A program made the translations under genes and the position numbers. The notes beneath the pieces are model-generated. The model was not told the DNA's origin. It ran no database searches and saw only the letters and a program-made list of their open reading frames with translations. This document shows positions 907-57,608 of a stretch of DNA of 64,000 bases, piece after piece. Position 1 is the stretch's first letter; each line of letters starts with the position of its first letter. Origin of the DNA: Neoarius graeffei (lineage: Eukaryota; Chordata; Actinopteri; Siluriformes; Ariidae); NCBI RefSeq assembly GCF_027579695.1, contig NC_083571.1, positions 33,584,443-33,648,442 of the forward strand. Reading direction: 5' to 3'.

Positions 907-1419
907 CAGGTAGCTAGCTGGAATTTTAAATAAAGCGGATGTAATTTTACCTCACACGACCCCGTAGGCACCTTATTGTCCAATAAAAATCGCGTTTTTT
1001 TTTTAATGTCTGACGTGTCGCCTGCTGGGATTGGCTGATCTGACGCACCCGTGAACTTCAGCGGTGAAAAAAAACCCAGATGGAATGGATTGCAAATACG
1101 TGATCATATTTTATATTTTGAAAGCTAATTTAACATTTAGATTTGTCCAAGCAAGTCATTTTTTTAAACTTTGATAATATATGCCTAACAAAATTATTTT
1201 TGACCAACTGTTAACAAATGTCAGATTTGTCCGCGAGCCAGATGCAGTCACCAAAAGAGCCACATCTGGCTCGCGAGCCATAGGTTCCCGACCCCTGGTT
1301 TAGATGCAAAAAATGTAATTTGTGATTAGCCATAGTGAATTTCTTCAAAATTTTACTAGACACACACAGGAGTGCTAACATTGGGAATGCCAGGCTGATG
1401 TAGTTTGTGTTTGCATGTA

Positions 1420-3028
1420 CAGTGGTGCTTGAAAGTTTGTGAACCCTTTAGAGTTTTCTATATTTCTGCATAAATATGACCTAAAACATCATCACATTTT
1501 CACAGAAGTCCTAAAAGTAGATAAAGAGAACCCAGTTAAACAAATGAAACAAAAATATTACACTTGGTCATTTATTTATTGAGGAAAATGATCCAATATT
1601 ACATATCTGTGAGTGGCAAAAGTATGTGAACCTCTAGGATTAGCAGTTAATTTGAAAGTCAAATTAGAGTCAAGTGTTTTCAATCAATGGGATGACAATC
1701 AGGTGTGAGTGGGCACCCTGTTTTATTTAAAGAACAGGGATCTATCAAAGTCTGATCTTCACAACACATGTTTGTGGAAGTGTATCATGGCACGAGCAAA
1801 GGAGATCTCTGAGGACCTCAGAAAAAGCATTGTTGATGCTCATCAGGCTGGAAAAGGTTACAAAACCATCTCTAAAGAGTTTGGACTCCAGCAATCCACA
1901 GTCAGACAGATTGTGTACAAATAGAGGAAATTCAAGACCATTGTTACCCTCCCCAGGAGTGGTCGGTCAACAAAGATCACTCCAAGAGCAAGGTGTGTAA
2001 TAGTCGGCGAGGTCACAAAGGACCCTGGGGTAACTTCTAAGCAACTGAAGGCCTCGCTCGCATTAGCTAATGTTAATGTTCATGAGTCCACCATCAGGAG
2101 AACATTGAACAACAATGGTGTGCATGGCAGGGTTGCAAGAAGAAAGCCACTGCTCTCCAAAAAGAACATTGCTGCTCGTCTGCAGTTTGCTAAAGCCTTC
2201 TGGACAAGCCAGAAGGCTATTGGAAAAATGTTTTGTGAACGAATGAGACCAAAATAGAACTTTTTGGTTTAAATGAGAAGCATTATGTTTGGAGAAAGGA
2301 AAACTCTGCATTCCAGCATAATAGCCTTATCCCATGTGTGAAACATGGTGGTGGTAGTATCATGGTTTGGGCCTGTTTTGCTGCATCTGGGCCAGGACAA
2401 CTTGCCACCATTGATGGAACAATAAATTCTGAATTATACCAGCGAATTGTAAAGGAAAATGTCAGGACATCTGTCCATGAACTGAATCTCAAAAGAAGGT
2501 GGGTCATGCAGCAAGACAATGACCCTAAGCACACAAGTCGTTCTACCAAAGAATGGTTAAAGAAGAATAAAGTTAATGTTTTGGAATGGCCAAGTCAAAG
2601 TCCTGACCTTAATCCAATCGAAATGTTGTGGAAGGACCTGAAGCGATCAGTTCATGTGAGGAAACCCACCAACATCCCAGAGTTGAAGCTGTTCTGTACG
2701 GAGGAATGGGCTAAAATTCCTCCAAGCTGTTGTGCAGGACTGATCAACAGTTACCGGAAACGTTTAGCTGCAGTTATTGCTGCACAAGGGGGTCACAACA
2801 GATACTGAAAGCAAAGGTTCACATACTTTTGCCACCCACAGATATGTAATATTGGATCATTTTCCTCAATAAATAAATGATCAAGTATAATATTTTTGTC
2901 TCATTTGTTTAACTGGGTTCCCTTTATCTACTTTTAGGACTTGTGTGAAAATCTGATGATGTTTTAGGTCATATTTATGCAGAAATTTAGAAAATTCTAA
3001 AGGGTTCACAAACTTTCAAGCACCACTG
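1420..3028 (+). mobile_element. Tc1/mariner element, family A, copy 1
   Basis: Long inverted repeats start CAGTGGTGCTTGAAAG and end with the complement; TA dinucleotides flank at 1418-1419 and 3029-3030. The body carries a decayed DD34E transposase on the plus strand. A second copy of the family lies inverted at 50324-51921. Confidence 0.95.
1787..2808 (+). pseudogene. Tc1-A transposase, broken
   Basis: The frame begins [13 protein letters not shown] and contains a helix-turn-helix DNA-binding region ending STVRQIVYK, where an in-frame TAG (1922-1924) replaces an expected Trp. More frame breaks follow near 2070 and 2230. The last 156 codons (2338-2808) are open and keep GGGSIMVWACF, the second catalytic Asp (QQDNDPKHT) and the Glu in [11 protein letters not shown]. 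The first catalytic Asp region (2235-2300) is frame-shifted. It cannot make an active enzyme. Confidence 0.9.
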
Positions 3029-3039
3029 TACAGTATATA

Positions 3040-15174: not shown

Positions 15175-15631
15175 TACATTATTATCCTAAGAAACATCCT
15201 GCATGTACAATTTGCTGATTGTACTTTTAATCATTAGCTCTGTTTGAATAATATCATATCCACATAAATTTAGCGAAAGACTTGGTCACTGCTGTGCATC
15301 ATGTTTCTCGATGGTCTCCACAGCCATTATCTGCACGTATAAAGCATGATAATCGAATGGTATGAATCAAATTTTATGCTTTTGGAAACTCACTGGCCAG
15401 AGAGACTGATGTAGCTGGTCTGAAACTGCGGCCAGACACCTTGAAAAGCTAACTGGACTTGTCCATAAAGTGTTTTTTTGTTTTTTTTTAATCGACACAT
15501 AGCGACAGATTAGGAAGGATGCTAGCCTGCTGCTTGCTAGTCATAACCAGAGTGTTAGCTGACTCTTCCATTTCTGTTTGATGATAGCAATGTTTACAGG
15601 ATTGCTATTTTTTAAAACCCTTACCCTAGTG
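15175..15631. other. no feature recognised
   Basis: Unique-looking AT-rich sequence between Tc1-C and the large hAT; no coding or repeat signal found. Confidence 0.5.
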
Positions 15632-15744
15632 CAGGGGTTCTCAATCTTTTCTGCTTCAAGGCCCACCTATTCATACTTTAATGAGTTGGGACCCATTAAA
15701 AAAGATCCCTAATTATTTTGGCTCATGTATTCTGTTAGAATGTA

Positions 15745-17350
15745 CAACCCCGATTCCAAAAAAGTTGGGACAAAGTACAAATTGTAAATAAAAATGGAAA
15801 GCAATGATGTGGAAGTTTCAAAATTCCATATTTTATTCAGAATAGAACATAGATGACATATCAAATGTTTAAACTGAGAAAATGTATCATTTAAAGAGAA
15901 AAATTAGGTGATTTTAAATTTCATGACAACACCACATCTCAAAAAAGTTGGGACAAGGCCATGTTTACCACTGTGAGACATCCCCTTTTCTCTTTACGAC
16001 AGTCTGTAAACGTCTGGGGACTGAGGAGACAAGTTGCTCAAGTTTAGGGATAGGAATGTTAACCCATTCTTGTCTAATGTAGGATTCTAGTTGCTCAACT
16101 GTCTTGGGTCTTTTTTTGGCATATCTTCCATTTTATGATGCGCCAAATGTTTTCTATAGGTGAAAGATCTGGACTGCAGGCTGGCCAGTTCAGTACCCGG
16201 ACCCTTCTTCTACACAGCCATGATGCTGTAATTGATGCAGTATGTGGTTTGGCATTGTCATGTTGGAAAATGCAAGGTCTTCCCTGAAAGAGGCGTCTTC
16301 TGGATGGGAGCATATGTTGCTCTAGAACCTGGATATACCTTTCAGCATTGATGGTGCCTTTCCAGATGTGTAAGCTGCCCATGCCACACATACTAATGCA
16401 ACCCCATACCATCAGAGATGCAGGCTTCTGAACTGAGCGCTGATAACAACTTGGGTCGTCCTTCTCCTCTTTAGTCCAAACGACACGGCATCTCTGATTT
16501 CCATAAAGAACTTCAAATTTTGATTCGTCTGACCACAGAACAGTTTTCCACTTTGCCACAGTCCATTTTAAATGAGCCTTGGCCCAGAGAAGACGTCTGC
16601 ACTTCTGGATCATGTTTAGATACGGCTTCTTCTTTGAACTATAGAGTTTTAGCTGGCAACGGCGGATGGCACGGTGAATTGTGCTCACAGATAATGTTCT
16701 CTGGAAATATTCCTGAGCCCATTTTGTGATTTCCAATACAGAAGCATGCCTGTATGTGATGCAGTGCCGTCTAAGGGCCCGAAGATCACGGGCACCCAGT
16801 ATGGTTTTCCGGCCTTGACCCTTACACACAGAGATTCTCCCAGATTCTCTGAATCTTTTGATGATATTATGCACTGTAGATGATGATATGTTCAAACTCT
16901 TTGCAATTTTACACTGTCGAACTCCTTTCTGATATTGATCCACTATTTGTCGGTGCAGAATTAGGGGGATTGGTGATCCTCTTCCGATCTTTACTTCTGA
17001 GAGCCACTGCCACTCCAAGATGCTCTTTTTATACCCAGTCATGTTAATGACCTATTGCCAATTGACCTAATGAGTTGCAGTTTGGTCCTCCAGCTGTTCC
17101 TTTTTTGTACCTTTAACTTTTCCAGCCTCTTATTGTCCCTGTCCCAACTTTTTTGAGATGTGCTGCTGTCATGAAATTCCAAATGAGCCAATATTTGACA
17201 TGAAATTTCAAAATGTCTCACTTTCGACATTTGATATGTTGTCTGTGTTCTATTGTGAATACAATATCAGTTTTTGAGATTTGTAAATGATTGCATTCCA
17301 TTTTTATTTACAATTTGTACTTTGTCCCAACTTTTTTGGAATCGGGGTTG
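15745..17350 (-). mobile_element. Tc1/mariner element, family D, copy 1
   Basis: Termini CAACCCCGATTCC and complement, with TA at 15743-15744 and 17351-17352. The 1606-bp length and near-complete transposase make it the best preserved Tc1 here. Other copies: 40256 (deleted) and 52065 (interrupted). Confidence 0.96.
16095..17042 (-). CDS. Tc1-D transposase, nearly complete, C-terminal frameshift
   Basis: The 315-codon frame starts [13 protein letters not shown]. Residues about 25-110 form the paired-like helix-turn-helix DNA-binding region ([19 protein letters not shown]). The catalytic triad is present: Asp in LWSDESKFE, Asp in FQHDNAKPH and Glu in SPIENIW, with 34 residues between the last two (DD34E). 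In the copy at 52515 the C-terminus goes on with [19 protein letters not shown]; here a frameshift after KICQKK ends it at TQDS, so the last about 45 residues are lost. Cut-and-paste at TA sites is the family activity; this copy is probably inactive. Confidence 0.9.
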
Positions 17351-17601
17351 TAATAATCTAATGTAAAGTGTATTAATGGGATGCAACATCACTCCCTGTT
17401 AGAGATGGGAGCCCAGGAATTAAATAAATACAATAAAAACAAACTGTTTTTAATTGTAGGTATTGTATTTAAAACTGTATGGATGTGCCAAAAGCCAACA
17501 TAAAGCCATGCATGCAGGGCATTCTCAGTCAAAAGGAATTAATGATCCAAAAGTGGAGTCTGATCAATTAACACGAGAACTTATTGCCGTGTTTGTGTTC
17601 A

Positions 17602-17748
17602 GCAAACAAGCAAGTTATTAAAACCAAGAAGTACACTCAAAAGAAGTGGATAAAGAAACCACTCAATGGGATAGATCCTTACACGTTAACAAAGAGGAAT
17701 TTTTCCTATGAAAGAAAAATGTACTCACTAAATTTGACATTAGTAGAA
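17602..17748 (+). pseudogene. exon-like fragment, DPY/NYL family, part 1
   Basis: After TTTGTGTTCAG the frame reads NKQVIKTKKYTQKKWIKKPL, then NGIDPYTLTKRNFSYE and a stop. The NG-x-DPY-x-L signature also appears in the separate frame at 18842 (INGLQICDPYGLP). From memory it resembles the N-terminus of fish SWIM-finger/YqaJ-nuclease-like proteins. Confidence 0.45.
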
Positions 17749-17971
17749 TAAATTTTGATCCTATTGTAGCCAGAACTAAATACAAAGACAATTGTTATGC
17801 ATACTATTAATTAACAATGTGAAGATAATTAACAGATAATCAACAGATTTTAAGGTTTTTAAGATCGTGTATATTTTTATTCTTTTGTATTTGTAATTGT
17901 GTCTGTACATGCACGACCCCACCAGCTCTGCTGTTCCACTTATTGTGTTTAAATAAAGTTATTCATTCATT

Positions 17972-18091
17972 TAGTATGAGCTGGAAAATGATCCATCTGT
18001 TGAGTTCCCATACATCTCAAACTACGTGGTGCTGCAAACATTCTACATGGACAAACAGATGAAAACCTGGAAGAGCATGTGTGGGATATAT
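17972..18091 (+). pseudogene. exon-like fragment, DPY/NYL family, part 2
   Basis: Acceptor TTCATTCATTTAG precedes ELENDPSVEFPYISNYVVLQ, then KQMKTWKSM and a stop. The P-x-I-x-NY-[VL] core matches YPDVYNYLINFP in the frame at 18842, so both pieces are relics of the same protein family; with part 1 they form the expected order. Confidence 0.45.
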
Positions 18092-18402
18092 AAATAGGGG
18101 TCTATTTAATTTTCAAGCATTCCAGTTAAGTTCAAGTTCAGCAATTTTTTTTAATTATTTTTAGCTTATTTTCCAGTGTTTCATGTATTTACTAGTAGCC
18201 CTGCTTGCCTGTGGTGTAGAGTGTAGTTGCGCATGTTAGCCAGCAGATGGTAGTAATGTCACTGTTTCTGATTGTTGCTCTGACTGTAGGGTGGTGATCT
18301 TGCGTTTCCTATAGAGATCTTGCAGTCACGTGACCGGAAAGTACACAGACGCCATCTTGTCGGGCAACAACACAGCTGAATACTGCTGCACTCGTGTACA
18401 GA

Positions 18403-18999
18403 ATGGATCACTTTCAACCGACGGACTACATGGCTCATTTTTCTAATGCACAGATAATTAGATCTCATCATCTCTAGCTGCTTTATCCTTCTACAGGGTC
18501 GCAGGCAAGCTGGAGCCTATCCCAGCTGACTACGGGCGAAAGGCGGGGTACACCCTGGACAAGTCGCCAGGTCATCACAGGGCTGACACATAGACACAGA
18601 CAACCATTCACACTCACATTCACACCTACGGTCAATTTAGAGTCACCAGTTAACCTAACCTGCATGTCTTTGGACTGTGGGGGAAACCGGAGCACCCGGA
18701 GGAAACCCACGCGGACACGGGGAGAACATGCAAACTCCACACAGAAAGGCCCTCGCCGGCCCCGGGGCTCGAACCCAGGACCTTCTTGCTGTGAGGCGAC
18801 AGCGCTAACCACTACACCACCGTGCCGCCAGATAATTAGATATATGTCTAAAATAAATGGTCTACAGATTTGTGACCCTTATGGCTTACCGGACGGAGTT
18901 TTCACGACCGTGTCAGTGGATCTTGAACTGCCAGAGGTGGAATACCCAGACGTGTATAATTACCTAATCAACTTTCCTTCGCTGTTAAATATAATTTAA
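18403..18999 (+). pseudogene. DPY/NYL-family N-terminal exon split by a SINE
   Basis: The frame starts MDHFQPTDYMAHFSNAQIIR, is cut by SINE D at 18464-18828, and continues in frame as YMSKINGLQICDPYGLP, VFTTVSVDLELPEVEYPDV and YNYLINFPSLL before stopping at 18997-18999. Removing the SINE and one TSD restores a single frame. It resembles the N-terminus of a SWIM/YqaJ-like protein family of fish, an assignment from memory only. Confidence 0.55.
18464..18828 (-). mobile_element. tRNA-derived SINE, copy D
   Basis: Reverse full-length copy; the 13-bp TSD CAGATAATTAGAT occurs at 18451-18463 and 18829-18841. It lies inside the coding frame beginning at 18403. Confidence 0.95.
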
Positions 19000-19413
19000 A
19001 ACTACAAACATTACATGAAGCATACAAAGACGGTGTAATTCATCATACACATTATCTGTAAAAACCATGCACAATGTTCACTTCATACATACTAGATTTT
19101 CATAAATTTGTATGAGGAAAATGCAAAAAGCGCCACTTTCAGGAGTAAATCATACATGGCATATATATTTATTTATAAGTCCTTATAAGGATTGATCCTT
19201 ATATTTATAAGGATTTACTACTAAGACAGTGGTAAATTATTATAAGTTCTTTACTGTTTTTTTTCGTACCACACCGCTAAAGACCCAATCCACCGCCCCG
19301 CCCCAACCCTCTTTTCTCAGGCTCCCACTTCCCGGAATTTTTTTATTAGAGCAAGTCATAAACTTATGCTGCAAATAACCACATGGATATACTGAAATAA
19401 ATACATGACGAAC

Positions 19414-19621
19414 CGGAGATGAAATGGTCACTGCACAGGCGCCAGTGATCGCTCCTTCCAGTTGGTACCCATGCCTTGTTCTTGTTGTTTGGATCAGCCC
19501 GGCCGATAGCAGCAATCCATTTTGCGCGCCTGTCAGGGTCCCATGGCAGCTTATGAAACTTTCTTCCTGTTTTCTGACCTCTCCTGTTGTGGCATTCATA
19601 TGCCATGCAAGTATCCGGCAT
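19414..19621 (-). pseudogene. THAP zinc-finger exon
   Basis: The frame from the ATG at 19621 reads MPDTCMAYECHNRRG, then RKFHKLPWDPDRRAKWIAAI, a Trp (AWVP) and LCSDHFISG. This is a complete THAP C2CH layout: C-x4-C, conserved Pro/Trp, then C-x2-H and F. A GT follows at 19413-19412. THAP domains bind DNA and occur in P-element- and Kolobok-type transposon proteins and in host THAP genes. The companion exon was not seen. Confidence 0.75.
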
Positions 19622-20045
19622 TGTGGCACGGTAATTTTTGAATATTTCGGCAAAAAAAAAAATGAAAGTCGGCGGCGGAAATATGGCGCTTGACCGCCAA
19701 GATGGCGTTTGTCTACAATCTGGAGCGGATGTGACGTCACATGCAAGTGCTCCATAGGTAATTGCAAGCTCCCACCTCTGTGAAAACACCAGTAAACTTG
19801 TTTAATACCATATTTTGCAGATACCGTAAAATACCAAATAATAGCCGAGTTCCAATTAACCGCCGAGTTCCCTTTAACGGCCAGGTGTACGCGTGTGTTG
19901 TGACAAATAAAGGCCGGTTCCGAATACTCGCCGGGGTCTAAAAAAAAAAAAAAAGCGTCCGAACGTTCTATCTAGAATCTTGAGGCCCAGCACTTTTCTG
20001 GTGTTTAAACGATTTTGCATTGCATAGTTTTCTACCGAAACAATA

Positions 20046-20085
20046 TGAATAAATGAATGAATGAATGAATGAATGAATGAATGAA
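20046..20085 (+). repeat. (AATG)n microsatellite
   Basis: About nine tetranucleotide units, AATGAATG-type. Confidence 0.95.
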
Positions 20086-21316
20086 ATTATTTCTATAATA
20101 CTGTTTACAACATTTTGTTACGTGATAATAAACATGCCATTTCAATGTTATAATCTTGGTCTACCGTAATATTTCTTGAGGAATGCAACTCCGTAACTTT
20201 TGACAGATGTCTTAGCCAATTACGTTTGACATGGGTGTGTGGGATATCACTTACGTCATCGAATGAGGAATACCCAGCGTGTGTGGTGACATTGAGGACT
20301 GCGGGTTTCCAAGGTTGGACTGCTGCTTCTGTTAAACAACCTAAATTGCCGAATGCATGCGTCAAAGCACACACTGAGTTTTATTAAAGACCTTATACCA
20401 TTTCACTTGCCCTTACCCATTCGGATCTGGAAGACGCTTTACAAAAAAGGTGAGAGCGTTCTAACATGCATTTCAGTCTGCTCGCGGCCAATCTAATCCA
20501 AGGGGCCTTTTCAACAAGTAATCTGTCGTGCAAGTTGGGCAGAAGCACGCGTCAGGCAGGCAACATGTAGGCCTACAAGTCAGTAACCTATTCAACTAAC
20601 TTTCATCCGAACTTTAAGTTTTCTACGGGGTCGAGCCACCGTACCAACTCACTCGGGGAATAGGCTCATATCCACCAAATAGGGAGACGTCTTGGAGAGA
20701 AACGTGAGAATGCAAGATGACAGTATGTAGCCACTGCAGGTCACTTATTTTTCAGCATAAGAAAAACCCTTTGGTTTGACACTTCGCACCCTAATTATGT
20801 TGCTTCAACGTCGCGCCCTCCATGCAATTTCAGATTGACAGACATCGCAAAGCACAAAGGGTGGAGGCTGCATGGGTGAGGGTGATAGCAAGTGACCATA
20901 ACTTTGCAGAGTAATTAAATCACAGTGCTGCACACAGACAATGGTGTGGTTTCTTGATTATTTTGTAAAGCATGCACTTAACTAGTCATTAACAGGAAAA
21001 GGTGTGTGATTTATCCTTTATCCACCCCGACTGTGCCATGCGAAGATGCATTCTGCGTCTTCAAAATTCCCCGAAGTCGGCACCATGCTATCTGTAATCT
21101 AACTCGAAAGAAACTGTAACGCTACGTTCACACTGCCAGGCTTAATGCTCAATTCCGATTTTTTTGTGAAATCCGATTTTTTTGTGAGGTCGTTCACATT
21201 AACAAATATATGCGACTTGTATGTGATCCTCAGTATGAACGAAAAGCAACCTAAAAGTGTTCCGCATGCGCACTGCAGGATACGACGACGTCACACGCAG
21301 TGAGCATGGCCAGTGT

Positions 21317-21477
21317 TTACGGAAGTAAAACCGCCCGGTTGCGGTATGACTCATCCAATCTAGTTTGAATAGCTGCATCCCCCCAAATGGAAATCAGCTC
21401 CCTAACCTCTGCATCCTTCCATTGAGAAGATTCAGAACCTTCACAGCCCGAAGCGTCCCTCGCATTGATGTCATGCG
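21317..21477 (-). pseudogene. Myb/SANT-like protein fragment of Harbinger
   Basis: The frame contains SSQWKDAEVRELISIWGDAA then IQTRLDESYRNRAV, the trihelix/Myb-like DNA-binding domain of the second Harbinger protein (Trp at the start of helix 1, W in helix 2). Its N-terminal end is cut by the MITE at 21478. Confidence 0.8.
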
Positions 21478-21882
21478 CAGGGGCGCAGATACGTTTTTTG
21501 AACTGGGGGGGACAAAAAACTGGGGGGGGGGGGGGGGGGGGCAAAGCTGCCAGCAAACCAACCCCAACCCCGATATGCCTGTCAAACTTGTTGTTAGTAA
21601 CCATAGCAACCAAGCTCGAGCTCGCAACCTGTGCAGTCTGCGCAGCTCAACCAACCGAATATCAGTCTTTGTTTTGTTTTATGTGAGTTGTTGCAACTAT
21701 ATGTAGGCTATACACTGCTGTGCACCTCAATAAACCGAATGGTAATTAGTCTTTTGATTTTTCCGTGAGGTTTGCCTTATGCAAAGAAAGACAGCATAGA
21801 CGTTTTTTCCTCCCTATAAGTGGGGGGGACCGAACGAGGTGAATTTAAATCTGACTCGTCCCACCCTCTATCTGCGCCCGTG
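21478..21882. mobile_element. hAT MITE nested in Harbinger
   Basis: Ends CAGGGGCGCAGAT and the complement of CACGGGCGCAGAT. The flanks GTCATGCG (21470-21477) and ATTATGCG (21883-21890) agree at 6 of 8 positions, so the TSD has diverged. Contains a G-run of about 18 at 21523-21541. Confidence 0.78.
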
Positions 21883-22994
21883 ATTATGCGCCATGTTGTT
21901 GTAACTTTTTTGAGAGACCCGCCGCCTACTTCAGCGCAGAATAGTGACGTTTGTGGCTTGTTGATGACGTGTAAGTCGGATGAATGCGACCTGGCGGTTC
22001 AGACTGAAGTCGCATATGAAAAGAGCGGATAGGAATCGGAATTAGCACCACATATCCAAACGGCCTGGGTCGGATTTGAAAAAATCGGATCTGTGTCGTT
22101 CATATTGTCAATAAAAGATCGGATACAGGTCACATATGGGCGAAAAGATCGGATTTGAGTCACTTCAGCCTGCAGTGTGAACGTAGCCTAAAAGTTATAC
22201 TGGTTAAAAGTAGGCCTATCTGAGAATGATTTTTCCCCGTTTTGAGGTAGATTTTGGGGAAGGTGTTTGTGAAGAGGGAATTAATCGCCTGTTCCAAATA
22301 GCCGCCTAGTCTCTAATACGCGCCGGGTCTCTTACGTGATTGAGACAAATAATAGCCCGGGCTATTATTTGGTATTTTACGGTATTGTCTTCTTTCCTCC
22401 ACGTCTGAAGGGCAACATGTGGAGGAGTACAAATTTTTATATGTGGCTGAGTTAAAGATCTGGGGATCAGGACACTACAAGATAAATCCTGGATTGTTTT
22501 TGCCCAGGCAAGGAAGAATTTCTGGGCCTTTTGGACGTGTCTTTGTGATGGCTGCTAGGACGCTCCAAGTTTTAGTATAAGGTGTAAACGAACCACAGCT
22601 GTTCGATTCTCAATCCTCCCTGCTTTTCTCTTCCAGCAGGCATCACAGATCCATATAATTTACCCACAAACATATTCATCTATCCTGTCCACTGTACCTG
22701 CGTGCTTTGTGTGTGCTGTCTCTCTCTCTCTTTCTCTCTCTGTGCATGCACAGGTTAAATGTAGAGGAGGAATATGACAAAAATAAAGGTTTGTTCTTCT
22801 TAATTTACCCACAAATGTTTTTATTCCATTTGAAAAGTGTATGGCGAACCAGCTACTGGATTTGGACACTACAACATCCTGAACTGTTTAATATTTGGCT
22901 TCAAACTTGAAAAAAAAATTGCGGCCCACTAATGGGCCACGGCCCAGTGGTTGAGAAACACTGCCCTAGTGAACAGTATGGAACCCTAGAAGGT

Positions 22995-23365
22995 CTCATC
23001 TCATCTCATTATCTCTAGCCGCTTTATCCTGTTCTACAGGGTCGCAGGCAAGCTGGAGCCTATCCCAGCTGACTATGGGCGAAAGGCGGGGTACACCCTG
23101 GACAAGTTGCCAGGTCATCACAGGGCTGACACATAGACACAGACAACCATTCACACTCACACCTACGGTCAATTTAGAGTCACCAGTTAACCTAACCTGC
23201 ATGTCTTTGGACTGTGGGGGAAACCGGAGCACCCGGAGGAAACCCACACGGACACGGGGAGAACATGCAAACTCCACACAGAAAGGCCCTCGACGGCCAC
23301 GGGGCTCGAACCCGGACCTTCTTGCTGTGAGGCGACAGCGCTAACCACTACACCACCGTGCCGCC
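22995..23365 (-). mobile_element. tRNA-derived SINE, copy E
   Basis: Full-length reverse copy, lacking one CACATT unit relative to the others. The 12-bp TSD ACCCTAGAAGGT is perfect at 22983-22994 and 23366-23377. It lies just outside the large hAT. Confidence 0.95.
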
Positions 23366-23377
23366 ACCCTAGAAGGT

Positions 23378-25409: not shown

Positions 25410-25583
25410 GAAAAAACCTTTATTATTCGTCACATGCACACTTCAAGCACAGTGAAATTCATCCTCTGCATTTAACCCATCTGAAGCAGTGAACACACAC
25501 TCAGAGCAGTGGGCAGCCACACCACAACGGAACCTTCTTGCTGTGAGGCGACCATGCTAACCACTACACCACTGTGCCGCAAG
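25410..25583 (-). repeat. dispersed repeat fused to a SINE head fragment
   Basis: TTTATTATTCGTCACATGCA and CTCTGCATTTAACCCATC are a familiar fish repeat; from 25528 it continues as the reverse head of the local tRNA-SINE (CTTCTTGCTGTGAGGCGAC to TGCCGC). The SINE body is missing. Confidence 0.6.
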
Positions 25584-27007: not shown

Positions 27008-27789
27008 ACCAATGCAGTTGCGCAGGCCTGCAGAGAAAGGGATGTAGCAGTACGGGGTTCGTCCCCCCATGTTCTCAGGCAGGAAGCGCTCTGGACGAAA
27101 CTCCTCAGGCTCGGGGAAGAATCGCGTATCACGGTGAAGTGCATATGTTAATATGAGCACATTTACACCTTTAGGCACATTGTAGCCATCTACACACACA
27201 CACACACACACAATTTTCAGGTCAGCAGTATGTCAGAATTCCTTCATTAGTAGTAATTTCACAATCAGTATAAATGAAAGGATAAATGATGGTGAATGGA
27301 TGGCTAAAAAAAGAGGGATGGGTGGATGGATGGGTGGATAAACAATTGCACCAATGTGTCAAAGTGTGGGTTCACATTTACGCTTCACCACTTATGCATA
27401 AACATTAAAAAAAACTTTTCTTATTAACACTGCTCTTCATCCGTTCATTGATGAGAGGACTGACATTAATTCATTGGATCAGAGAAGGACTCAATCACTG
27501 AATAAAACAGTCAGTCAATCAGTTACTCAGTAACTCAACAATCTATAATCAATATATAGATCAGTAAGAGAATGAATTGTTCACTGAATCAGTAATTAAA
27601 TCAATGACTCAAACAATAAATAAATAAATGGATCTATAATTAGATCAAAGAATGAATCAATCAATGAATCAATAACTCAGTCAACAAATCAACAAGTCTG
27701 AAGGTTAAATATTGAAAAAAAAATTAATCTTATCAGTTGGAAGATTTTAAATGATTGTAAATCATCACCATTGTGTGTGTGAGAGAGAG

Positions 27790-27832
<43 letters not shown>

Positions 27833-28060
27833 GATCTTTGTGTCTTCAGAGATGCTACGAGCAAAGAACGGCACAGATGGAAAGATACGCAGCACCTCTT
27901 TAATCACACAATCCAAGTAACGCATCTTCTTCAAGTCTTCAGTGCTAACGGGCCTGTCAGAGTCACCTGACATACACACACACACACACACGCGTGTGCA
28001 CATATGCACAATACATACCAATATATACCTGATAGAGATGTGTACAATACTGTAGACCAT

Positions 28061-28091
<31 letters not shown>

Positions 28092-31000
28092 CTCACCAAA
28101 AACTTCATCCACTTCCTGCTGAACTTTCCTCTGTATGTCAGGATGAGCCCCCAGCAGGTGAATGGCCCAGGCCATACCAGCCGCTGTAGTGTCATGACCC
28201 TGCCACAAGGGGGAGACAGAGAACACAATTTCTAAAACACTATAATGTGCTTCTTTAAAATAAAGTGATTAAATTTAGCCCATGTACTCAATTAACCGAT
28301 GGAACTAGAACTACGAGGATAATGGAGTTAACCATGGAGGCTCATAGCTACAGGTTTAGCATCAGCTAAACAGACATCGATGACTTCAAAAACACAAACT
28401 GAACATATAAGGATACAAACACAATACAGAAATGTTCATAAGCATTTATAAACAGTTTTCCTGACCAGTTTCTTTTTTTGCTATTTATTTACCTAACAAA
28501 TACTTTAACTGAGACTCACTGATTCATGAACTCGTGTATTAGTGACTGATGGCAAACGTATTTATAGTTAATCAGTGATTTTAACAAGGCAAGGCAAGTT
28601 TATTTATGTAGCGCATTTCATACACAGTGGCAGTTCAATGTGCTTTACAGAAGTAAAGGCAAAACAGTAAACAATAAAAAATAAAATTACATAAAATAAA
28701 GGGGGAAGAAGAGAGAAAAATAAAAATAATATGAGAATTAAGCAATAGTAGAAATAAAGTAATAAAATGAAGTAAAAGCTCAGTAAAAAAAACAGCAGAA
28801 TAAAATGGAATAAAAGTTAAGTAAAATTTAAAACATGCAAAGACTGTAAAAGTTAAGTAAAGTTTAAAACATGTAAAGATAATGATATTTATCAGTTAGC
28901 AGAAAGCATCTGAAAACAGCTTGGTCTTTAATCTAGATTTGAAGCTGCCAACAGCAGGAGCATTTTTGATGTCCTCTGGGAGTTGGTTCCATAGCTGTAC
29001 TGCATAGTAGCTAAAAGCTGCTTCACCCCACTTTGTTTTAACAACAGGTTTTACCAGTAAATTTTGCTGCTGCGATCTGGTAGATCTGATTGGGTTAGGC
29101 CGCTGCAACATATCAGAGAGGTAATTGGGCCCTGTACCATTTAGAGATTTGTACACCAGCAACAATGCTTTAAAGTCAATTCTGTAGCTTACTGGAAGCC
29201 AGTGAAGGGACCTTAGAATTGGAGTAATGTGCTCTGTTCTTTTTGTTCGTGTGAGAACCCTAGACACTGCATTTTGAACCAGCTGAAGTCATTTGATGGT
29301 CTTTTTTGGCAGGCCTGTGAAAAGGCCATTGCAGTAGTCAACCCTACTAGAGATGAAGGCATGTATAAGTTTTTCCAGATCATTTTTTGACACAAGTCCT
29401 CTTAGTTTGGAAATGTTTTTTTAGGTGATAAAATGCCGATTTAGTGATTGCTTTCATATGACTATCAAAGTTTAGCTCGCTGTCAATGAAAACACCAAGA
29501 TTTTTAACCATATCTTTTGTTTTAATCCCCTTTGTGTCAAGAATAGTGGTAATCCTGAGTCTTTCATCTTTTTTCCCCAAATAGAATTACTTCTGTTTTA
29601 TCTGCGTTCAGCTGAAGAAAATTTTGTGACATCCAGTCGTTGATTTGGTCGATACACTGGTAGAGACATTCAAGGTGGGCATAATCATTAGGTGATAGAG
29701 CAAAGTAAATTTGGGTGTCACCTGCATAGCAGTGATACAAAATTGAGTTGTTCTTGATAATTTGTCCAAGTGGGAGCATATAAAGGTTGAATAGTAATGG
29801 TCCAAGGATCGACCCCTGGGGGACACCACAGGTCAAGGACATTGATGTTGAGGTACAATTTCCCATGGTAACAAAGAACCTTCTAAATATGATTTTAACC
29901 AATTGATAACTTTACCAGTCAACCCAACCCAGTGTTCAAGTCAATATAGCAGTATGTTGTGATCAACAGTATCAAAAGCTGCACTGAGGTCCAGTAACAC
30001 CAGGACCGATGTTTTCCTGCATCAGTATTAAAACGTATGTCATTTATGACTTTAATCAGCGCTGTTTCAGTGCTGTGATTGCCACGAAATCCTGACTGAA
30101 AGTTATCAAAGCAGCTGTTTGATATCAAGAAGGCAGTTAATTGATTGAAGACAATTTTTTCAAGGATTTTCCTGATGAATGGTAGATTTGATATTGGCCT
30201 GTAGTTGTTCAATACTGAAGCATCCAGATTATTCTTTTTAAGTAGGGGCTTTACAACGGCTTTTTTCAGGGACACAGGAAAAATGCCAGTCTCTAGGGAT
30301 GTATTTATGATCTGAAGCACATCTGTAATTATGAGGTGAAGAATAGACAAAAAAGTTGGTGGGCAGAATGTCCAATTCAGATGTTGAAGAACTGAGATTT
30401 TGTACAGTTTTTTCAAGAGTCTCGTAATCAATCAAACAAAATTCTGACATTGTGTTGAAATTGTCTGTCTGTGTCACTGGTGATTGCAGCTTTTCAGTTA
30501 TTTGCAACTGAGATATATTATGAGCAATATTCTGCCGTATTTTATCAATTTTACCTTTGAAGAAGGATGCAAACTCATTGCATTTATTAACTGAGAGAAG
30601 TTCAGGTGCTAATTGTGGTGGGGGGATTAGTTAGCTTCTCTACTGTTGAAAATAGCACACGGGCATTGTTCATATTCCTGCTGATGATGTTGGAGAAGAA
30701 AGACTGTCTTGCTTTACCAATTTCATAATTATATTTACAAAGCATCTCTTTATGGATTTGATAATGGATGTGAAGTTTAGATTGGCGCCATTTTCTTTCA
30801 GTCTTCCTACATCCCTGGAACACAGGGACACCTATGTTCGAATGCTGTTTGTGGACTACAGTTCAGCCTTCAACACCGTCATCCCCAGCAGACTGACAGA
30901 GAAGCTCTCCACCCTTGGACTGACATCCTCCCTCTGCTACTGGGTCCTGGACTTTCTCACAAACAGACAACTCTGATGTTGTTTTGAAACAGGAAGGAGA

Positions 31001-34000
31001 CTAGACTGGTTTACCCCCTGGGTTAAATATGCTCCATGTTTTCTATTTCTTATCAACACAGGAATAGAGAATGGCATAGGCATAGGTCCCAGCCTGTTTT
31101 CAAAACTACACCCAGTGCAGGGACCCACAGCACATCATACAAGACTCTCTGTATATTCCATGAGGTTGGGAGGGGGAAGGAATGGAGATGTCATGTATTT
31201 TTTAGATGGTGAAAAAGACTGGTAGCCAGCTGAAAGTCCTGGGCGAACACTGTTGGTTGGTTTTCGATGAACTGGGTATGCTGCTTGTCGCAAATGATTT
31301 GGGCTGGAAAAAGAGTGTGCAGCCATTGGCAGCAATCTCTGCATACTTTTAGGGAAATCCATGCAGGGGGGAGACAGGGATGGTACATTGAAGTCAGAAG
31401 AGCGAGACTGAGATTGGGACTTTGGTGAGGTCTTTGTGAGTGTCTCCATGACTGTCTCCGTGACAGTCTCTGTGATACTTGCATGGGGTCGAGATGTGGA
31501 TGATGCAGCCTTGGCATGATTGTCTTTGGTCAGGTCCTCAATCTGGATGGGCGATGCAGATATCTGTGGCTGCCCATTGTTAACAACATGCTCACATTCT
31601 CCATGCGATTGTTGATGTCCTTGGCAGTCTGCCCCAAATGGTCCGCAAAGAAGCGTCCTCTCAGAACACATACACTTCTGAGAAATGTTGATATTTTTAA
31701 TGGTTTTGTATTGCTTTCATGGTCACTCAGCCTTTAAATAGCTATAAGCTAGCTAATTCTTGGCTCCATACTTTCCCAGTTGCCTAGCAACAATGTTTTT
31801 GCTTTGCTCCTGCTTGAACTCCTCTTTTCTGCTTTTTTCACCATTTCTCTATTTTTTCTTATTTGCTTTCTTTTTACTTACATTCAACAAGTTTAGCAAG
31901 GAAGGACAGATGTTTTCTCCCATTTATACAAGATAACCTAGAAGTTAGACAAAGCAACTGACACAGAAGACTGGATTATAGCAAAATGGGGAAACCAAGG
32001 AACTCTAGTAACAAATGAACTGAGCTTGAAAAAAGAATTTCTAGCCTGGAATCTATGATTAATGCCCGTCTATTAAGGATTGAAGGGAGTCCAGCAGCCA
32101 ATACCGCTAAGGGGAATGCGGGGAATGTTCAGCATCTGAATGATGGGAACTTGGATGAATCGGTTGACTTCACAAAGCAAAATGTGAGTACTGATTGCTG
32201 GAAAAGACAAGGTGCTAGACCCAAAAACAAAAGGGCATTAACTTCAACTCCATTGCGGTCTGATGCCGTCAGACCTAGGCAAGGCAAGGCAAGTTTATTT
32301 ATATAGCACATTTCATACACAGTGGCAGTTCAATGTGCTTTACAGAAGTAAAAGCAGAACAGTAAACAATAGAAAATAAAATTACATAAAATAATTGGGG
32401 AAGAAAAATAATAAGAATTAAACAATAGTAGAAATAAAATAATAAAATGAAATAAAAGTTCAAAAAAGGAATCAGCCTCGAGATTAATTATTATTATGGG
32501 TTTAACTCATAAAGCGCGCTCTTCCCGTGGCTCTTCCACGAGGATCACCAAAAATCATCCCACAGAGAAAATCTACGAGGATCACCAAATAAAATCGTCC
32601 CGCAGACAAAATCTACGAGGATCACCAAAAATCGTCCCGAAGACAAAATCTACGAGGATCACATAAAGTGCGCTCTTCCCGTGGCTCTTCCACGAGGATC
32701 ACCAAAAATCGTCCCGCAGACACAATCTACGAGGATCACCAAATAAAATCGTCCCGCAGACAAAATCTACGAGGATCACCAAAAATCGTCCCGCAGACAA
32801 AATCTACGAGGATCACAGTAACAAAGAATTAAAGTAAAAGTAAAATCATTAAAATCCAAGATTAAAAAGAAATTAAAATAAAGAAAGTAAAATCATTAAA
32901 ATCAAAATTAAAAGAAATTATGTTAAAGGAAATTAATTACTTAGGTAAAAATTAATCAAGTGAAAGCATCTGAAAACAGCTTTGTCTTGAGCCTGGATTT
33001 AAAACTAACAACAGTAGGAGCATTTTTGATATCATCTGGAAGTTGGTTCCAAAGCTTAGCAGCATAGCAACTAAAGGCTGCTTCACCACACTTCGTTTTG
33101 ACAGCTGGTATTACTAGCAAGTTTTTCTCCTGTGATCTTAGAGACCTAGTTGGTGCATATAATTGAAACATATCCAGTAGGTAGCTGGGTCCCATCCCAT
33201 TTAATGTTTTAAATAGAAGAAGTAGTGCTTTAAAGTCAATTCTATAGCTCACTGGGAGCCAGTGCAGAGACCTTAGGATTGGAGTGATATGGACTACCCT
33301 TTTTGTTCTTGTAAGAACCCTTGCTGCTGCATTTTGGATTAGTTGAAACTCTTTGATGGTCTTTTTTGGAAGACCTGTGAAAAGGCTATTGCAGTAATCA
33401 ACCCTACTGGAGATGAAAGCATGAATAAGTTTTTCTAGATCATGTTTTGACATGAGACCCCTGAGTTTAGAAATGTTTTTTAGGTGATAGAATGCAGACT
33501 TTTTTACCACTTTCATATGACTGTTGAAGTTAAGTTCGCTGTCAATAAGGACACCAAGGTTTTTTACAGTATCCTTTGCTTTAAGCCCCTTAGTTTCAAG
33601 AACAGTGGCAATCCTAAGCCTTTCCTCCTTTTTGCCAAATATAATTGCTTCAGTTTTATCTGCGTTCAGCTGAAGAAAATTGTGAGACATCCATTTGTTA
33701 ATTTGGTCAATGCATCTATGAAGAGACTCAAAAGGGGCATAGTCATTAGGTGACATAGCTAAGTAAAGCTGAGTGTCATCTGCATAGCTATGGAAGTTTA
33801 TTGAGTTATTCTTAATAATTTGTCCAAGTGGGAGCATATAAAGGTTGAATAGTAATGGTCCCAGGATTGAGCCCTGGGGAACCCCACAGTTCAAGGACAC
33901 GGGTGATGAACTGTGGCCTCCAATGGCCACATAAAAAAATCTTTGTTGTAAGTAAGATTTTAACCAGTTGATTACTATACCAGTAAATCCAACCCAATAC

Positions 34001-37000
34001 TCCAGTCGATGTAACAGTATGGAATGATCTACCGTGTCAAATGCAGCACTTAAGTCTAAAAGCACCAAGACTGATGTTTTACCAGCATCAGAATTAAGAC
34101 GTAGGTCATTCATGACTTTAGTAAGAGCTGTTTCAGTGCTATGATTGGCACGAAAACCTGACTGAAACTTATCAAAACATCCGTTTGATGTCAGGAAGGC
34201 AGTTAATTGATCAAAAACAATTTTTTCAATTATTTTACCAACGAATGGCAAATTGGATATGGGCCTGTAGTTGTTGAGTACTGAGACATCTAGGTTATTC
34301 TTTTTCAGTAGGGGTTTTACAACCACTTTTTTCAGAGATGAGGGAAACATGCCAGTTCGTAAGGAGGTGTTGATAATCTGAAGTACCTCGTCTGATATTA
34401 GGTGAAGAACAGATTTGAAAAAGACTGTAGGTAAAATGTCCAGTTCAGATGTGGAGGAGCTGAGACTTTGTACTGTTTTTCTCAGAGTCTCAACATCAAT
34501 TAAACTAAATGTTGACATTGTATTACGACCCCCTTTCTCTTTATCCAATGGTTCCAGAGTTTGAAGTGTTTGCACCTGTGTGGCTACATTCATACGTATT
34601 TTATCAATTTTTCCTTTGAAAAAAGATGCAAAGTCGTTGCATGTATTAACTGAGAGAAATTCAGAAGGCATTTGTTTTGATGGGTTTGTTAGCTTTTCAA
34701 CTGTAGAAAATAGCACACGGGTATTGTTGATATTCCTATTAATAATGTCAGCAAAAAAAGACTGTCTTGCTTTAGAAATTTCTAAGTTGTATTTACATAA
34801 CATCCCTTTGTAGATTTGATAATGAATCTGGAGTTTAAATTTACGCCATTTTCTTTCAGACTTTCTACATTCCCTCTAACATTTTAACTGTTGGATTTAG
34901 TTTCCAGGGTGCTTTTCCTTTGTCTATGACTCTTTTGGTTTTTAAAGGAGCAATAGCATCCATAATATGATTCATTCTTGAATTAAAAATTTCCATTAGA
35001 TCATCTGCACGATCTGAAGATTGACATGGGAGTTCTGAGAGTGCCTGCTCAAAAAGAGCTGCTGTGCCATTGGTAATTACCCTCTTTTTTTACAGTCACA
35101 GACTTGTTTTGAAAGTGAGGGGAAATGGAAATATCAAAGAAAACAGAGAAATGATCAGATATACCCAGGTCCATGACACTAGTAGATACATTAAGACCCT
35201 TATGCCGCTTTTCCACTACAAACGCGGCTGAGCCGTGCCGTGCCGAGTCGAGCTGAGTCGAGCTGAGCGGGGCTGTTGGAGTTGCATTTCGACTACAACC
35301 GCGCTGAACCGTGCTGGCTGGAAGTGGGTGGACACATTGGGTGGAGTTAGTGAAAGTGGGTGGACGTCACGTGATGTCGTTAAGCAGCGCAAACAGTGAC
35401 ATCAGTGACAGTGGCGGAACAAGTCAGAGCCGGGCCGGGGGCGGGGCAAATGACTGGGCCCTTTATTAAAGCTTATCATAACATCATTTTAGGCTACAAA
35501 ATGTCCGCAGCTGCGGTGTTTACCAATTTCAACACTACCGGGTGCAACTATATGTTATTTAGTACATCAAGTCCTTCAAACGAACATGTAACTCAGAAAC
35601 AAAAAACATTAGGATACTGTACATGGCTCATAATAAAACATCAATAGCCTATACTGCGCACATTATTTGAAGGGCATACGAATGAGCGCTCAGAGTGGTG
35701 ACAGGAAGAGTCAGAAATAAAAGGAGGGCGGTGCAAACCTCACTGAATGCACTGTGTTTATCAATTTCAACACTACGGGGTGCAACTATGTTATTTTGTA
35801 CATTAAGTCCTTCAAACGAACATGTAACTCAGAAACAAAAAAACATTAGGCGACATACTGTACATGGCTCATAATAAAACATCAATAGCCTACTGCGCGC
35901 ATTATTTGAAGGGCATACGACGAGCCTTGCGCTCCGCGAACTCGTCCACGATGCTCTGTATGTCACTGATTCAGTGAGCTTTTAAGCAGTAGTCTCACGA
36001 CCCGGATAGTAAACAATAAACATGGAGGACATGGAGTCGTTAGTGTTGCTGGTCTTGGTGCTGTGGCTTGTTGTCACCGACAACGCCAACAGATACTGGC
36101 AAGAGCGTATAGATGAGGCGAGGCGCATAAGGCTTCAGAAATTCTCGTAATTAGTAATTATTCTTCTTCCGGGTTTGCGGTGTTTACAGATCCCAGCGTG
36201 CTCGCGGGGCGTGTGTGGGCATGTGAGGACACTCCTCCTCACCAATCAGTGCACAGGGGAGTGTCTGCTCACGCCCCCAGCCTCACTCGGCACGGTTTGG
36301 CTCGCTTCAGCCCCACTCCAAAACGGTGCGAGTTTTAGGGGCTAAGCAGGGCTGAAACGAGCTGAGTCGTGCTGGTTTTTGGTAGTCGAAACGCGAGCCG
36401 TGTCGGGCTGAAGTGAGCTGAAGCGAGCTGAAAAAGGGTAGTGGAAAAGGGCCATTAGTGATGACAAGGTCGAGGGTGTGGCCATGGGAGTGTGTTGGCC
36501 CTTGTACATGTTGTGTTAGGTTGAAGGCATCAATCAGTGTAAGAAATTCATTTGCATACGTGTTATCTGGATTATCAACATGGAAGTTAAAATCCCCAGA
36601 AATAATAAGATTGTCAAACTCTAAACAAATATTTGACAACAGTTCTCCAAACTCCTCTAGGAACAGTGGTGCAGAAAGTCTTGGTGGTCTGTAAATAGTC
36701 AACACTAATATGTTAGAAGAACATTTTAGGATTGCACTTAGGTATTCAAAAGATGTAAAATCACCAAGAGTTGTCTGTTTGTACTGAAAACATGCCTTGT
36801 ATATATTTGCTATTCCTCCTCCCCATTTATTGGCTCTTCCAACACTCATGAAATCAAAGAGTGGGGGAGTTGCTTCAATAAGAGTAATAGAGCTACTTGA
36901 TTGTTCAAGCCAAGTTTCAGTAAGAAGCATAAAATTCAGTTTGTGTGTACCGATGAAGTCATTAATTAAAAAAGGCTTATTAAGTGATCTTACATTCTGA

Positions 37001-40000
37001 AGAGCTAGTTTTACAGTGAATGTGGGGATAATTTCCACAGAAGCGTTCTGTGGTTGTTTTGGAACTGGAAGGAGATTTGACAAGTTTAACCCATTGAAAG
37101 GATGAATAAGAACACCTCTCCTTCTTGTTAGCACAGGAATAGAAAAGTACGTCGTGGGTCCCAGCTTATTTTCAAAACTACCATCTGGACCCAGATTATA
37201 TCAGTTCGTTCCAACATGAAGGTCTTCACTGCTGCAGGTGAACTGTAGCTGTGCACATGGTCCTTGAGTCTTATCTGTAATCACAGGGGGAGGTGGTGCC
37301 CTCTGTTTCTTGGGTGCTGTAGCAGTAGGATATATCATTAAAGATATTGGGGTACACAAGGCCTGACCATGAGACAGCTCTGTGTACGATACTTGATTTG
37401 AGTGTCCTCTTGGGCTTGCCAAAGACACTCGGCTTAAAGACAATAGTCTCTCCATTTTCTCAGGAAAACGCAGTCTGGGGGGTGAAGGAGATACAGAGGG
37501 GCTTGGGGTTACATCCACTGTTGTTGGTGGTGATTGCCTATTGCCAGTCTCAGGTGGTTGTGGTGATGCTTGTTTATCTGATTGTCTTTCTGATACCGTA
37601 GTTCTGCCAGCTTACCCGTTAGCTCAGATATCATGTTGCTAGCCTTGGAAAGTGACGGGGATGTGTGTGGTGATAGATCCACCCTCTGATCATTTTCCTG
37701 AACTGTATTGGGGGCAGATGAGTCAGCATGATCCTCTGTAGTTGCTGGGGGCTTAGTTGCCTTCGTTGGTGACAAGGAGTTTTGCTTGAATCCATCAGAG
37801 TGAGCGTTAGTCCCGCTTCTTTCTGCCTGCAGATTCACTGCTTGAGTTTGAACCTCAGCAGTGTGTTTCTGTATTGTTTTTGAGCCTTTGTTGATGTCCC
37901 TGGAAGGTTCAGTTTGTACCCAAACAGAGTTCGTATCAGTGTTGTTAGCTCCTTTCAGTGCAGCTACAGAGCGCTTATCAGAGAGTGTACCCAAGGTTCA
38001 TCACCTGTGTCCTTGAACTGTGGGGTTCCCCAGGACTCAATCCTGGGACCATTACTATTCAACCTTTATATGCTCCCACTTGGACAAATTATTAAGAATA
38101 ACTCAATAAACTTCCATAGCTATGCAGATGACACTTAGCTTTACTTAGCTATGTCACCTAATGACTATGCCCCTCTTGAGTCTCTTCATAGATGCATTGA
38201 CCAAATTAACAAATGGATGTCTCACAATTTTCTTCAGCTGAACGCAGATAAAACTGAAGCAATTATATTTGGCAAAAAGGAGGAAAGGCTTAGGATTGCC
38301 ACTGTTCTTGAAACTAAGGGGCTTAAAGCAAAGGATACTGTCAAAAACCTTGGTGTCCTTATTGACAGCGAACTTAACTTCAACAGTCATATGAAAGTGG
38401 TAAAAAGAGTCTGCATTCTATCACCTAAAAAACATTTCTAAACTCAGGGGTCTCATGTCAAAACATGATCTAGAAAAACTTATTCATGCTTTCATCTCCA
38501 GTAGGGTTGATTACTGCAATAACCTTTTCACAGGTCTTCCAAAAAAGACCATCAAAGAGCTTCAACTAATCCAAAATGCAGCAGCAAGGGTTCTTACAAG
38601 AACAAAAAGGGTAGTCCATATCACTCCAATTCTAAGGTCTCTGCACTGGCTCCCAGTGAGCTACAGAATTGATTTTAAAGCATTACTTCTTCTATTTAAA
38701 ACATTAAATGGGATGGGACCCAGCTACCTACTGGATATGTTTCAATTATATGCACCAACTAGGTCTCTAAGATCACAAGAGAAAAACTTGCTAGTAATAC
38801 CAGCTGTCAAAACGAAGTGTGGTGAAGCAGCCTTTAGTTGCTATGCTGCTAAGCTTTGGAACCAACTTCCAGATGATATCAAAAATGCTCCTACTGTTGT
38901 TAGTTTTAAATCCAGGATCAAGACAAAGCTGTTTTCAGATGCTTTCACTTGATTAATTTTTACCTAAAGTGTAATTAATTTCCTTTAATATAATTTCTTT
39001 TAATTTTGATTTTAATGATTTTACTTTCTTTATTTTAATTTCTTTTTAATCTTGGATTTTAATGATTTTACTTTTACTTTAATTCTTTGTTACTGTTCTT
39101 ATGCTTTTATTTTTGTGAAGCACATTGAATTGCCTGTGTGTACGAAATGCGCTATACAAATAAACTTGCCTTGCCTTGTATATCTCCTAGTCGCTCATTG
39201 TGCTCATAGTTTGTCTCTTGTGGTTATGTGTTTGACTTCGCACAAGATATTAGGATTATTTGCAATCTAACTATAACCTGTGAAATGGATACCTCGAACA
39301 TAAAAGTGTCCACTTCCTCCCGGATGTCTTGGTGTATCATCTTGTTCCCGTCCTCATCTGTCGTCTTCAGCAGCATGTCCAGGAAGGCCCGCCTCTTCTT
39401 CTTTCTCTGATCGGATTCACTGTCGGACTCCGTGTAGTGGACTCCATGCTCCTCCCTTTCACGAATGACCTGTGTGTCAATCAATGAAAAGGACTGGTGA
39501 GACCTTAAAGCTGATTGGATGCTATTTGTGATGTCATAATAATTGATCAAAATAACGTGCACGCTCCGTGAAGGAGTGCAGGATTTTTAGACAGCGGTCA
39601 TGCTCTTTGCCATCGCCGAAATACTGGAACGCAAAGTCCGGCCAGAACCATGGCATCCGCTGGCGCTTGCTGATGAGGTCACTCATCCTGAACCAATCAG
39701 ATTTCATGGTTAGTTTGGGAGGTCATATCACTTTTACCCAACAAGTCTTGATTTAATCATTATACAGTGATTTCTGCAGCCATTTATGCACCAACAAGGG
39801 TGGAGCTTACGTTAATTTGGCTAGCCAAGCACAAATTTGATCAGATTTTACCATAATAACATGCTAGCAAGCTTAACTCCTGATCCTAAATCACACATAA
39901 TGTGTTCAACATTGTAATAGCTAGCGTATAGCAAACACTTTCTATATTTACCTCAGTTAATGTACTGTTTTGTTTTGTGTTATTAATGCTAGCCTGTTCA

Positions 40001-57261: not shown

Positions 57262-57608
57262 CCATCCATCCATTATTTGTAGCTGCTTATCCTGTCCTAC
57301 AGGGTCGCAGGCAAGCTGGAGCCTATCCCAGCTAACTATGGGCGAGAGGCAGGGTACACCCTGGACAAGTCATCGCAGGGCTGACACACAGACACAGACA
57401 ACCATTCACACCTATGGTCAATTTAGAGCCACCAATTAGCCTAACCTGCATGCCTTTGGGGGAAACCAGAGCACCCGGAGGAAACCCACGCAGACACAGG
57501 GAGAATATGCAAACTCCACACAGAAAGGCCCTCGTCGGCCGCTGGGCTCAAACCCAGGACCTTTTTGCTGTGAGGCGACAGTGCTAACCACTACACCACC
57601 GTGCCGCC
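57262..57608 (-). mobile_element. tRNA-derived SINE, copy F (divergent)
   Basis: Reverse copy with a (TCCA)n tail and more changes than copies A-E. TSD ACATTATAACGT / ACACTATAATGT (10 of 12), and the intact site ACACTATAATGTGCTTC is present at 28237 in the paralogous gene. Confidence 0.92.

Follow-up and report, generated by a model that had tools for sequence, protein, structure and literature searches.

Nested transposons are common, and relative dating by nesting is an established procedure. REANNOTATE resolves nested repeat clusters and dates insertions relative to one another by nesting (PMC2672092), and TRANScendence derives a chronology from an interruption matrix (PMC5657132). In the human genome, 35% of DNA elements on the Y chromosome and 46% on chromosome 2 are listed as nested (table 3 of PMC2672092). 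A copy of the hAT element BuT2 in Drosophila mojavensis contains an insertion of ~1,700 bp, probably a mariner element (PMC3942097). At medaka dmrt1bY, Rex1 lies inside Izanagi, in an arrangement with a tested regulatory role (PMC5789577). In fish, few superfamilies are as widespread as hAT and Tc/mariner (PMC6817897, PMC7599744). We analyzed a stretch of 64,000 nucleotides from Neoarius graeffei (contig NC_083571.1, positions 33,584,443 to 33,648,442; hereafter "the window"), in which one hAT-type element, the outer hAT, contains a nest of other transposons.

The nest has up to four levels. The outer hAT holds an element with a 26-bp terminal inverted repeat (TIR), this element holds a Harbinger-like element, and the Harbinger-like element holds a hAT-like miniature inverted-repeat transposable element (MITE). 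The outer hAT also holds a Tc1 element and a THAP-domain element that is split by a short interspersed nuclear element (SINE). The nest itself was confirmed, and we consider it to have arisen by ordinary nested insertion, the hAT coming first and the other elements landing in it later (probability ~0.8). The ends of the elements, the duplications named for them and the containment of one element in another were read directly from the DNA (Table 1). They bore out the four-level nest in a single outer hAT that had been claimed in a preliminary description of the window, whose coordinates proved to be accurate almost to the base.

Table 1. Coordinates (positions in the window) of the elements of the nest and of the target duplications of the outer hAT.
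Feature	Position	Strand	Features observed
Left target duplication CCCTAGTG of outer hAT	15624-15631		8/8 match to 22964-22971
Outer hAT-type element	15632-22963		7332 bp; ends CAGNGNTTCTCAANC; TIR 12/15
Tc1 element	15745-17350	-	TA at 15743-15744 and 17351-17352; transposase domains
THAP-domain element	18285-19780 (approximate ends)	-	THAP domain; inverted similarity of ends
SINE inside THAP-domain element	18464-18828	-	13-bp direct repeat; box-like motifs; other copies in window
26-bp-TIR element	19821-22385		Perfect inverted repeat 19821-19846 / 22360-22385
Harbinger-like element	21120-22188	-	TAA at 21117-21119 and 22189-22191; TIR 16/17
hAT-like MITE	21478-21882		TIR 13/14; 8-bp duplication 6/8
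Possible extra insert in right arm of outer hAT	22671-22800		130 bp; between exact 15-mers TAATTTACCCACAAA
Right target duplication CCCTAGTG of outer hAT	22964-22971		8/8 match to left duplication

hAT elements have target duplications of 8 bp and short TIRs of 10-25 bp (PMC3942097). Both features were found in the outer element. CCCTAGTG adjoins both ends directly on the outside, and the duplication is perfect, as previously described; a third copy of this 8-mer, the only other one in the window, is at 42377. The start of the element, CAGGGGTTCTCAATC, agrees with the complement of its right end, CAGTGTTTCTCAACC, at 12 of 15 positions. The end pattern CAGNGNTTCTCAANC occurs without mismatch at two places in the window, which are the two ends of the outer hAT, and 200 shuffles of the window's bases yielded no exact match. 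When the inserts are removed, a residue of ~1.66 kb is left in four pieces of 111, 932, 40, and 578 bp (based on the approximate ends of the THAP-domain element). The element was filed as hAT on its termini; it would be a non-autonomous copy, or one whose gene was lost or has decayed. In its right arm, exact copies of TAATTTACCCACAAA at 22656-22670 and 22801-22815 enclose a segment that may be a further insert, absent from the earlier list of elements. When the bases of this arm were shuffled 300 times, direct repeats of at least 12 bp appeared in 5 of the shuffles (those of at least 15 bp were not counted apart).

The Tc1 element showed characters of its family: TA on both sides, inverted ends (matching over at least 13 bp; arms 82% complementary over 219 nt), and Tc1-type transposase domains. 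A minus-strand frame of 318 aa matched DDE_3 at 46.9 bits (cut-off 28.6) and HTH_Tnp_Tc3_2 at 33.4 bits (cut-off 31.5), the DDE_3 match ending at profile position 135 of 146. The ends of the element are complete and match those of two other copies in the window; identity to these copies was 97.1% and 96.9% (gaps not counted). A search of viral contigs with a Tc1 peptide pattern matched six stretches, none of which encodes a relative. A shortened Tc1 copy at 40256-41329 has the same ends, TA on both sides and ~530 internal bases fewer than the copy in the nest; it is a deletion derivative.

The arms of the 26-bp inverted repeat are 100% identical. Because this repeat begins with ATA and ends with TAT, its plainest reading is that TA was probably duplicated and that the TIR measures 23 bp; the TA concerned (19822-19823 and 22383-22384) falls within the perfect repeat, so it could also belong to the TIR. 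In the left arm, 19847-21119, to which the scan was limited, six frames contained no transposase family, DDE transposases included; the right arm is 22189-22359. Assignment of the element as pogo/Tc1-like was considered and not filed, given the absence of a DDE transposase from the left-arm frames. Viral contigs contained no exact match to a 25-base stretch of the TIR.

PIF/Harbinger elements make a 3-bp duplication of TWA type and encode a Myb-like or DDE_4-type protein. The Harbinger-like element has TAA on both sides and a TIR that matches at 16 of 17 positions, in agreement with the Harbinger duplication and TIR; the TAA duplications had been stated in the preliminary description. Matches to Myb_DNA-bind_4 scored 20.1 and 18.1 bits, under the cut-off of 27 (the second scan covered minus frames only). 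A hAT MITE would have an 8-bp duplication, a TIR, and no coding capacity. The MITE in the nest would be hAT-like: its TIR matches at 13 of 14 positions, but the 8-bp flanks GTCATGCG and ATTATGCG agree at only 6 of 8 bases. Sub-cut-off Pfam matches to GSP_synth, Prok-E2_A, Ndc10_N, Bacteriocin_IIi, and PLAC8 were judged to be chance matches.

The THAP domain scored 48.3 bits (cut-off 23.9), and the ends of the element that carries it, compared as an inverted repeat, are alike at 62 of 88 columns. These ends are approximate, and the element appears to have no believable target duplication. One candidate duplication, GTCACGTG / GTCACATG (one mismatch; boundaries 18300-18344 × 19715-19789), was rejected on account of its position inside the inverted repeat. 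No P-type transposase beyond the THAP domain was found in three minus frames of 18830-19820, to which the scan was limited. The zebrafish P-like element Pdre2 is, like the element in the nest, a THAP-domain DNA element of fish type, and has a 13-bp TIR and a 12-bp subterminal repeat (PMC10983969). For the element described here, in contrast to Pdre2, no 8-bp duplication was found, and neither Pdre2 repeat has an exact match in the window; for these reasons it was not filed as a P element. TTAA flanks are of Kolobok type. TTAA is present at 18106, 18126, 18151, and 19802 in the stretches inspected around the element; inspection by eye revealed no convincing inverted repeat beside these sites, and a TTAA-flanked reading was dropped.

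The SINE that splits the THAP-domain element is flanked by a 13-bp direct repeat, CAGATAATTAGAT, at 18451-18463 and 18829-18841. The splitting of a THAP element by a SINE stood as first described, except that neither clean ends nor a believable target duplication were found for the THAP element itself. A- and B-box-like motifs were recognized in the SINE. Neither ARAGORN nor Rfam (gathering threshold) gave a hit in the window, and it is therefore these motifs that suggest a tRNA origin. The SINE was 96.4-99.2% identical (gaps not counted) to four other near-full copies in the window; a fifth, 85.0% identical copy (57271-57608) and the fragment 25532-25580 were not part of this comparison. A further SINE copy, at 22983-23377, lies just outside the outer hAT and has its own 12-bp duplication, ACCCTAGAAGGT.

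The nest was probably built as follows. A non-autonomous or decayed hAT of ~1.66 kb would have inserted at CCCTAGTG and then served as a landing ground, into which the Tc1, the THAP-domain element, and the probably TA-duplicating 26-bp-TIR element each inserted, most likely by cut-and-paste, as their families suggest. The SINE would have entered the THAP-domain element through reverse transcription at the target, and the Harbinger-like element, within which the MITE sits, would have entered the 26-bp-TIR element. Duplications are present at inner junctions of the Tc1 (TA), the Harbinger-like element (TAA), and the SINE (13 bp). Every inner insertion at this locus would then be later than the outer one.

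Containment orders 10 of the 21 pairs formed by seven elements (outer hAT, Tc1, THAP-domain element, SINE, 26-bp-TIR element, Harbinger-like element, and MITE; the segment 22671-22800 was left out). These are the outer hAT versus each of the other six, the THAP-domain element versus the SINE, and three pairs among the 26-bp-TIR element, the Harbinger-like element, and the MITE. Three siblings (Tc1, THAP-domain element, and 26-bp-TIR element) lie immediately within the outer hAT, and nesting gives no order among them. Nesting order is insertion order here only if no element came with its guest. An inner insertion may be earlier, and may have occurred elsewhere, because a guest can travel with the cut-and-paste element that holds it. 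The earlier claim of relative ages for five superfamilies was therefore overstated: the order holds for the 10 pairs, on condition that no guests were carried in, and leaves the siblings unordered. In addition, no superfamily has been assigned to the 26-bp-TIR element, and that of the THAP-domain element is not settled.

Observed/expected CpG ratios were lowest for the outer hAT residue (0.28) and the Tc1 (0.38), and higher for the THAP-domain element excluding the SINE (0.82), the 26-bp-TIR element excluding the Harbinger-like element (0.91), the Harbinger-like element excluding the MITE (1.14), and the MITE itself (0.62). Outside the nest, the window had a ratio of 0.47. Of 5000 length-matched random segments taken outside the nest, none reached the ratio of the 26-bp-TIR element, 21 reached that of the Harbinger-like element, and 147 that of the THAP-domain element. 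If the genome is methylated, these values hint at older outer and younger inner layers, except for the MITE; the families may have differed in starting composition.

Several results weigh against ordinary nested insertion beginning with a single hAT. The CpG ratio of the outer hAT residue is not unusual, 916 of the 5000 random segments outside the nest being as low, and some 1-kb windows elsewhere attain ratios of 0.88-0.90. Scans of the two large residue pieces, in six frames each of 17351-18316 and 22386-22955, revealed no hAT transposase domain. For the THAP-domain element, boundaries 18262-18324 × 19735-19814 gave no 8-bp duplication with 0-1 mismatch (best 2). Neither an empty site for any layer of the nest nor a second copy of the hAT, THAP, 26-bp-TIR, Harbinger, or MITE layer was seen in the window. 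Finally, the MITE, expected to be the youngest element, has the poorest 8-bp duplication (6/8, versus 8/8 for the outer hAT) and a CpG ratio below that of the Harbinger-like element around it.

These two properties of the MITE are in keeping with an alternative in which the structure is right and the chronology is not, one or more elements having arrived already with a guest, e.g., the Harbinger-like element holding the MITE. Joint mobilization of an element and an element nested in it has been described (PMC2672092), and the poorer duplication suggests, weakly, that the MITE may have come in this way. However, two changes per 8 bases are few, the CpG figure of the MITE is affected by a long G run and may reflect the starting composition of its family, and no second Harbinger-plus-MITE copy was seen in the window. 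We regard a wrong chronology of this general kind as unlikely, and its specific form, a composite mobile unit in which the Harbinger-like element jumped into the 26-bp-TIR element with the hAT-like MITE already aboard, as slightly more doubtful still. With such a unit, the order of insertion at this locus would not be that of nesting, and chronologies based on nesting could be biased.

The other two alternatives concern the structure itself. That the ends beside CCCTAGTG come from two different hAT elements, with an 8-mer match by chance, might be argued from ends that are alike at only 12 of 15 positions and from the lack of a hAT transposase linking them in the two large residue pieces scanned. 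The preliminary description named as refuting its claim the case of two separate elements, each with its own complete partner end, and partner ends were searched for: at up to two mismatches, CAGNGNTTCTCAANC had six further matches in the window and none inside the nest, although ends decayed past two mismatches would escape such a search. Within this limit the refuting case failed, and two separate hATs were rejected. Random pairs of positions shared an 8-mer in 77 of 2,000,000 draws, so an exact 8-mer beside both ends is expected by chance in about 4 in 100,000 pairs. Two separate hATs are accordingly the least credible of the explanations considered. An assembly artefact in repeat-rich DNA, accounting for part of the nest, is very improbable as well. 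The Tc1 and the SINE are indeed multi-copy in the window; however, four of the elements (outer hAT, Tc1, SINE, and Harbinger-like) are bordered by target duplications, and a misjoin is not expected to yield them. Ordinary nested insertion into one outer hAT therefore remains our preferred explanation.

Other repeats are present in the window. A second nest, at 52065-55029, consists of a Tc1 split by a 1377-bp hAT-like insert (53419-54795) that has ends CATAGGCGG / CAGTGGCGG and is flanked by perfect 8-bp copies of CTCACAGT. Its empty site is supplied by Tc1 copies in the window that are uninterrupted there, including the Tc1 of the main nest. This insert is likewise a nested cut-and-paste element; however, the second nest has only two levels, versus four in the main nest. 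A different element with inverted ends is present twice, at 1414-3032 and 50322-51927 (92.7% identity between the copies); the copy at 1414-3032 has a DDE_3 frame (E-value 1.1e-13). Repeated segments of a retroelement of non-long-terminal-repeat type extend over 28584-39179, with an RVT_1 match at 32959-34875 (E-value 8.4e-37) and endonuclease matches. A frame at 27692-28231 matched cytochrome P450 (E-value 7.4e-9) and is perhaps a host-gene exon.

A literature text search with five terminal sequences returned only papers that were unrelated by title, and a search joining all nested-transposon and fish terms found none; neither was aimed at this locus. The present nest is an instance of a routine phenomenon, repeated insertion into repeat DNA, by which genomes rich in transposons ordinarily expand. 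At one locus with well-preserved junctions, it allows containment, duplication decay, and CpG content to be compared across the same elements. Above all, it serves as a reminder that nesting yields only a partial order and presumes that guests were not carried in. As in REANNOTATE and TRANScendence, contained elements were read here as an insertion order (PMC2672092, PMC5657132). Those methods work genome-wide with known families, whereas the order given here comes from one locus, without library comparison or second copies of most layers. Among fish, Rex1 in the P-like Izanagi is comparable to the SINE in the THAP-domain element; the medaka nest has a tested regulatory role (PMC5789577), whereas no sign of function was noticed for the present nest, at which no search for function was aimed. 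The BuT2 copy of D. mojavensis resembles the outer hAT in having identical 8-bp duplications and in holding a Tc1/mariner-type element inside. It differs in having one insert at one level (PMC3942097), whereas the nest in N. graeffei has several inserts at four levels.

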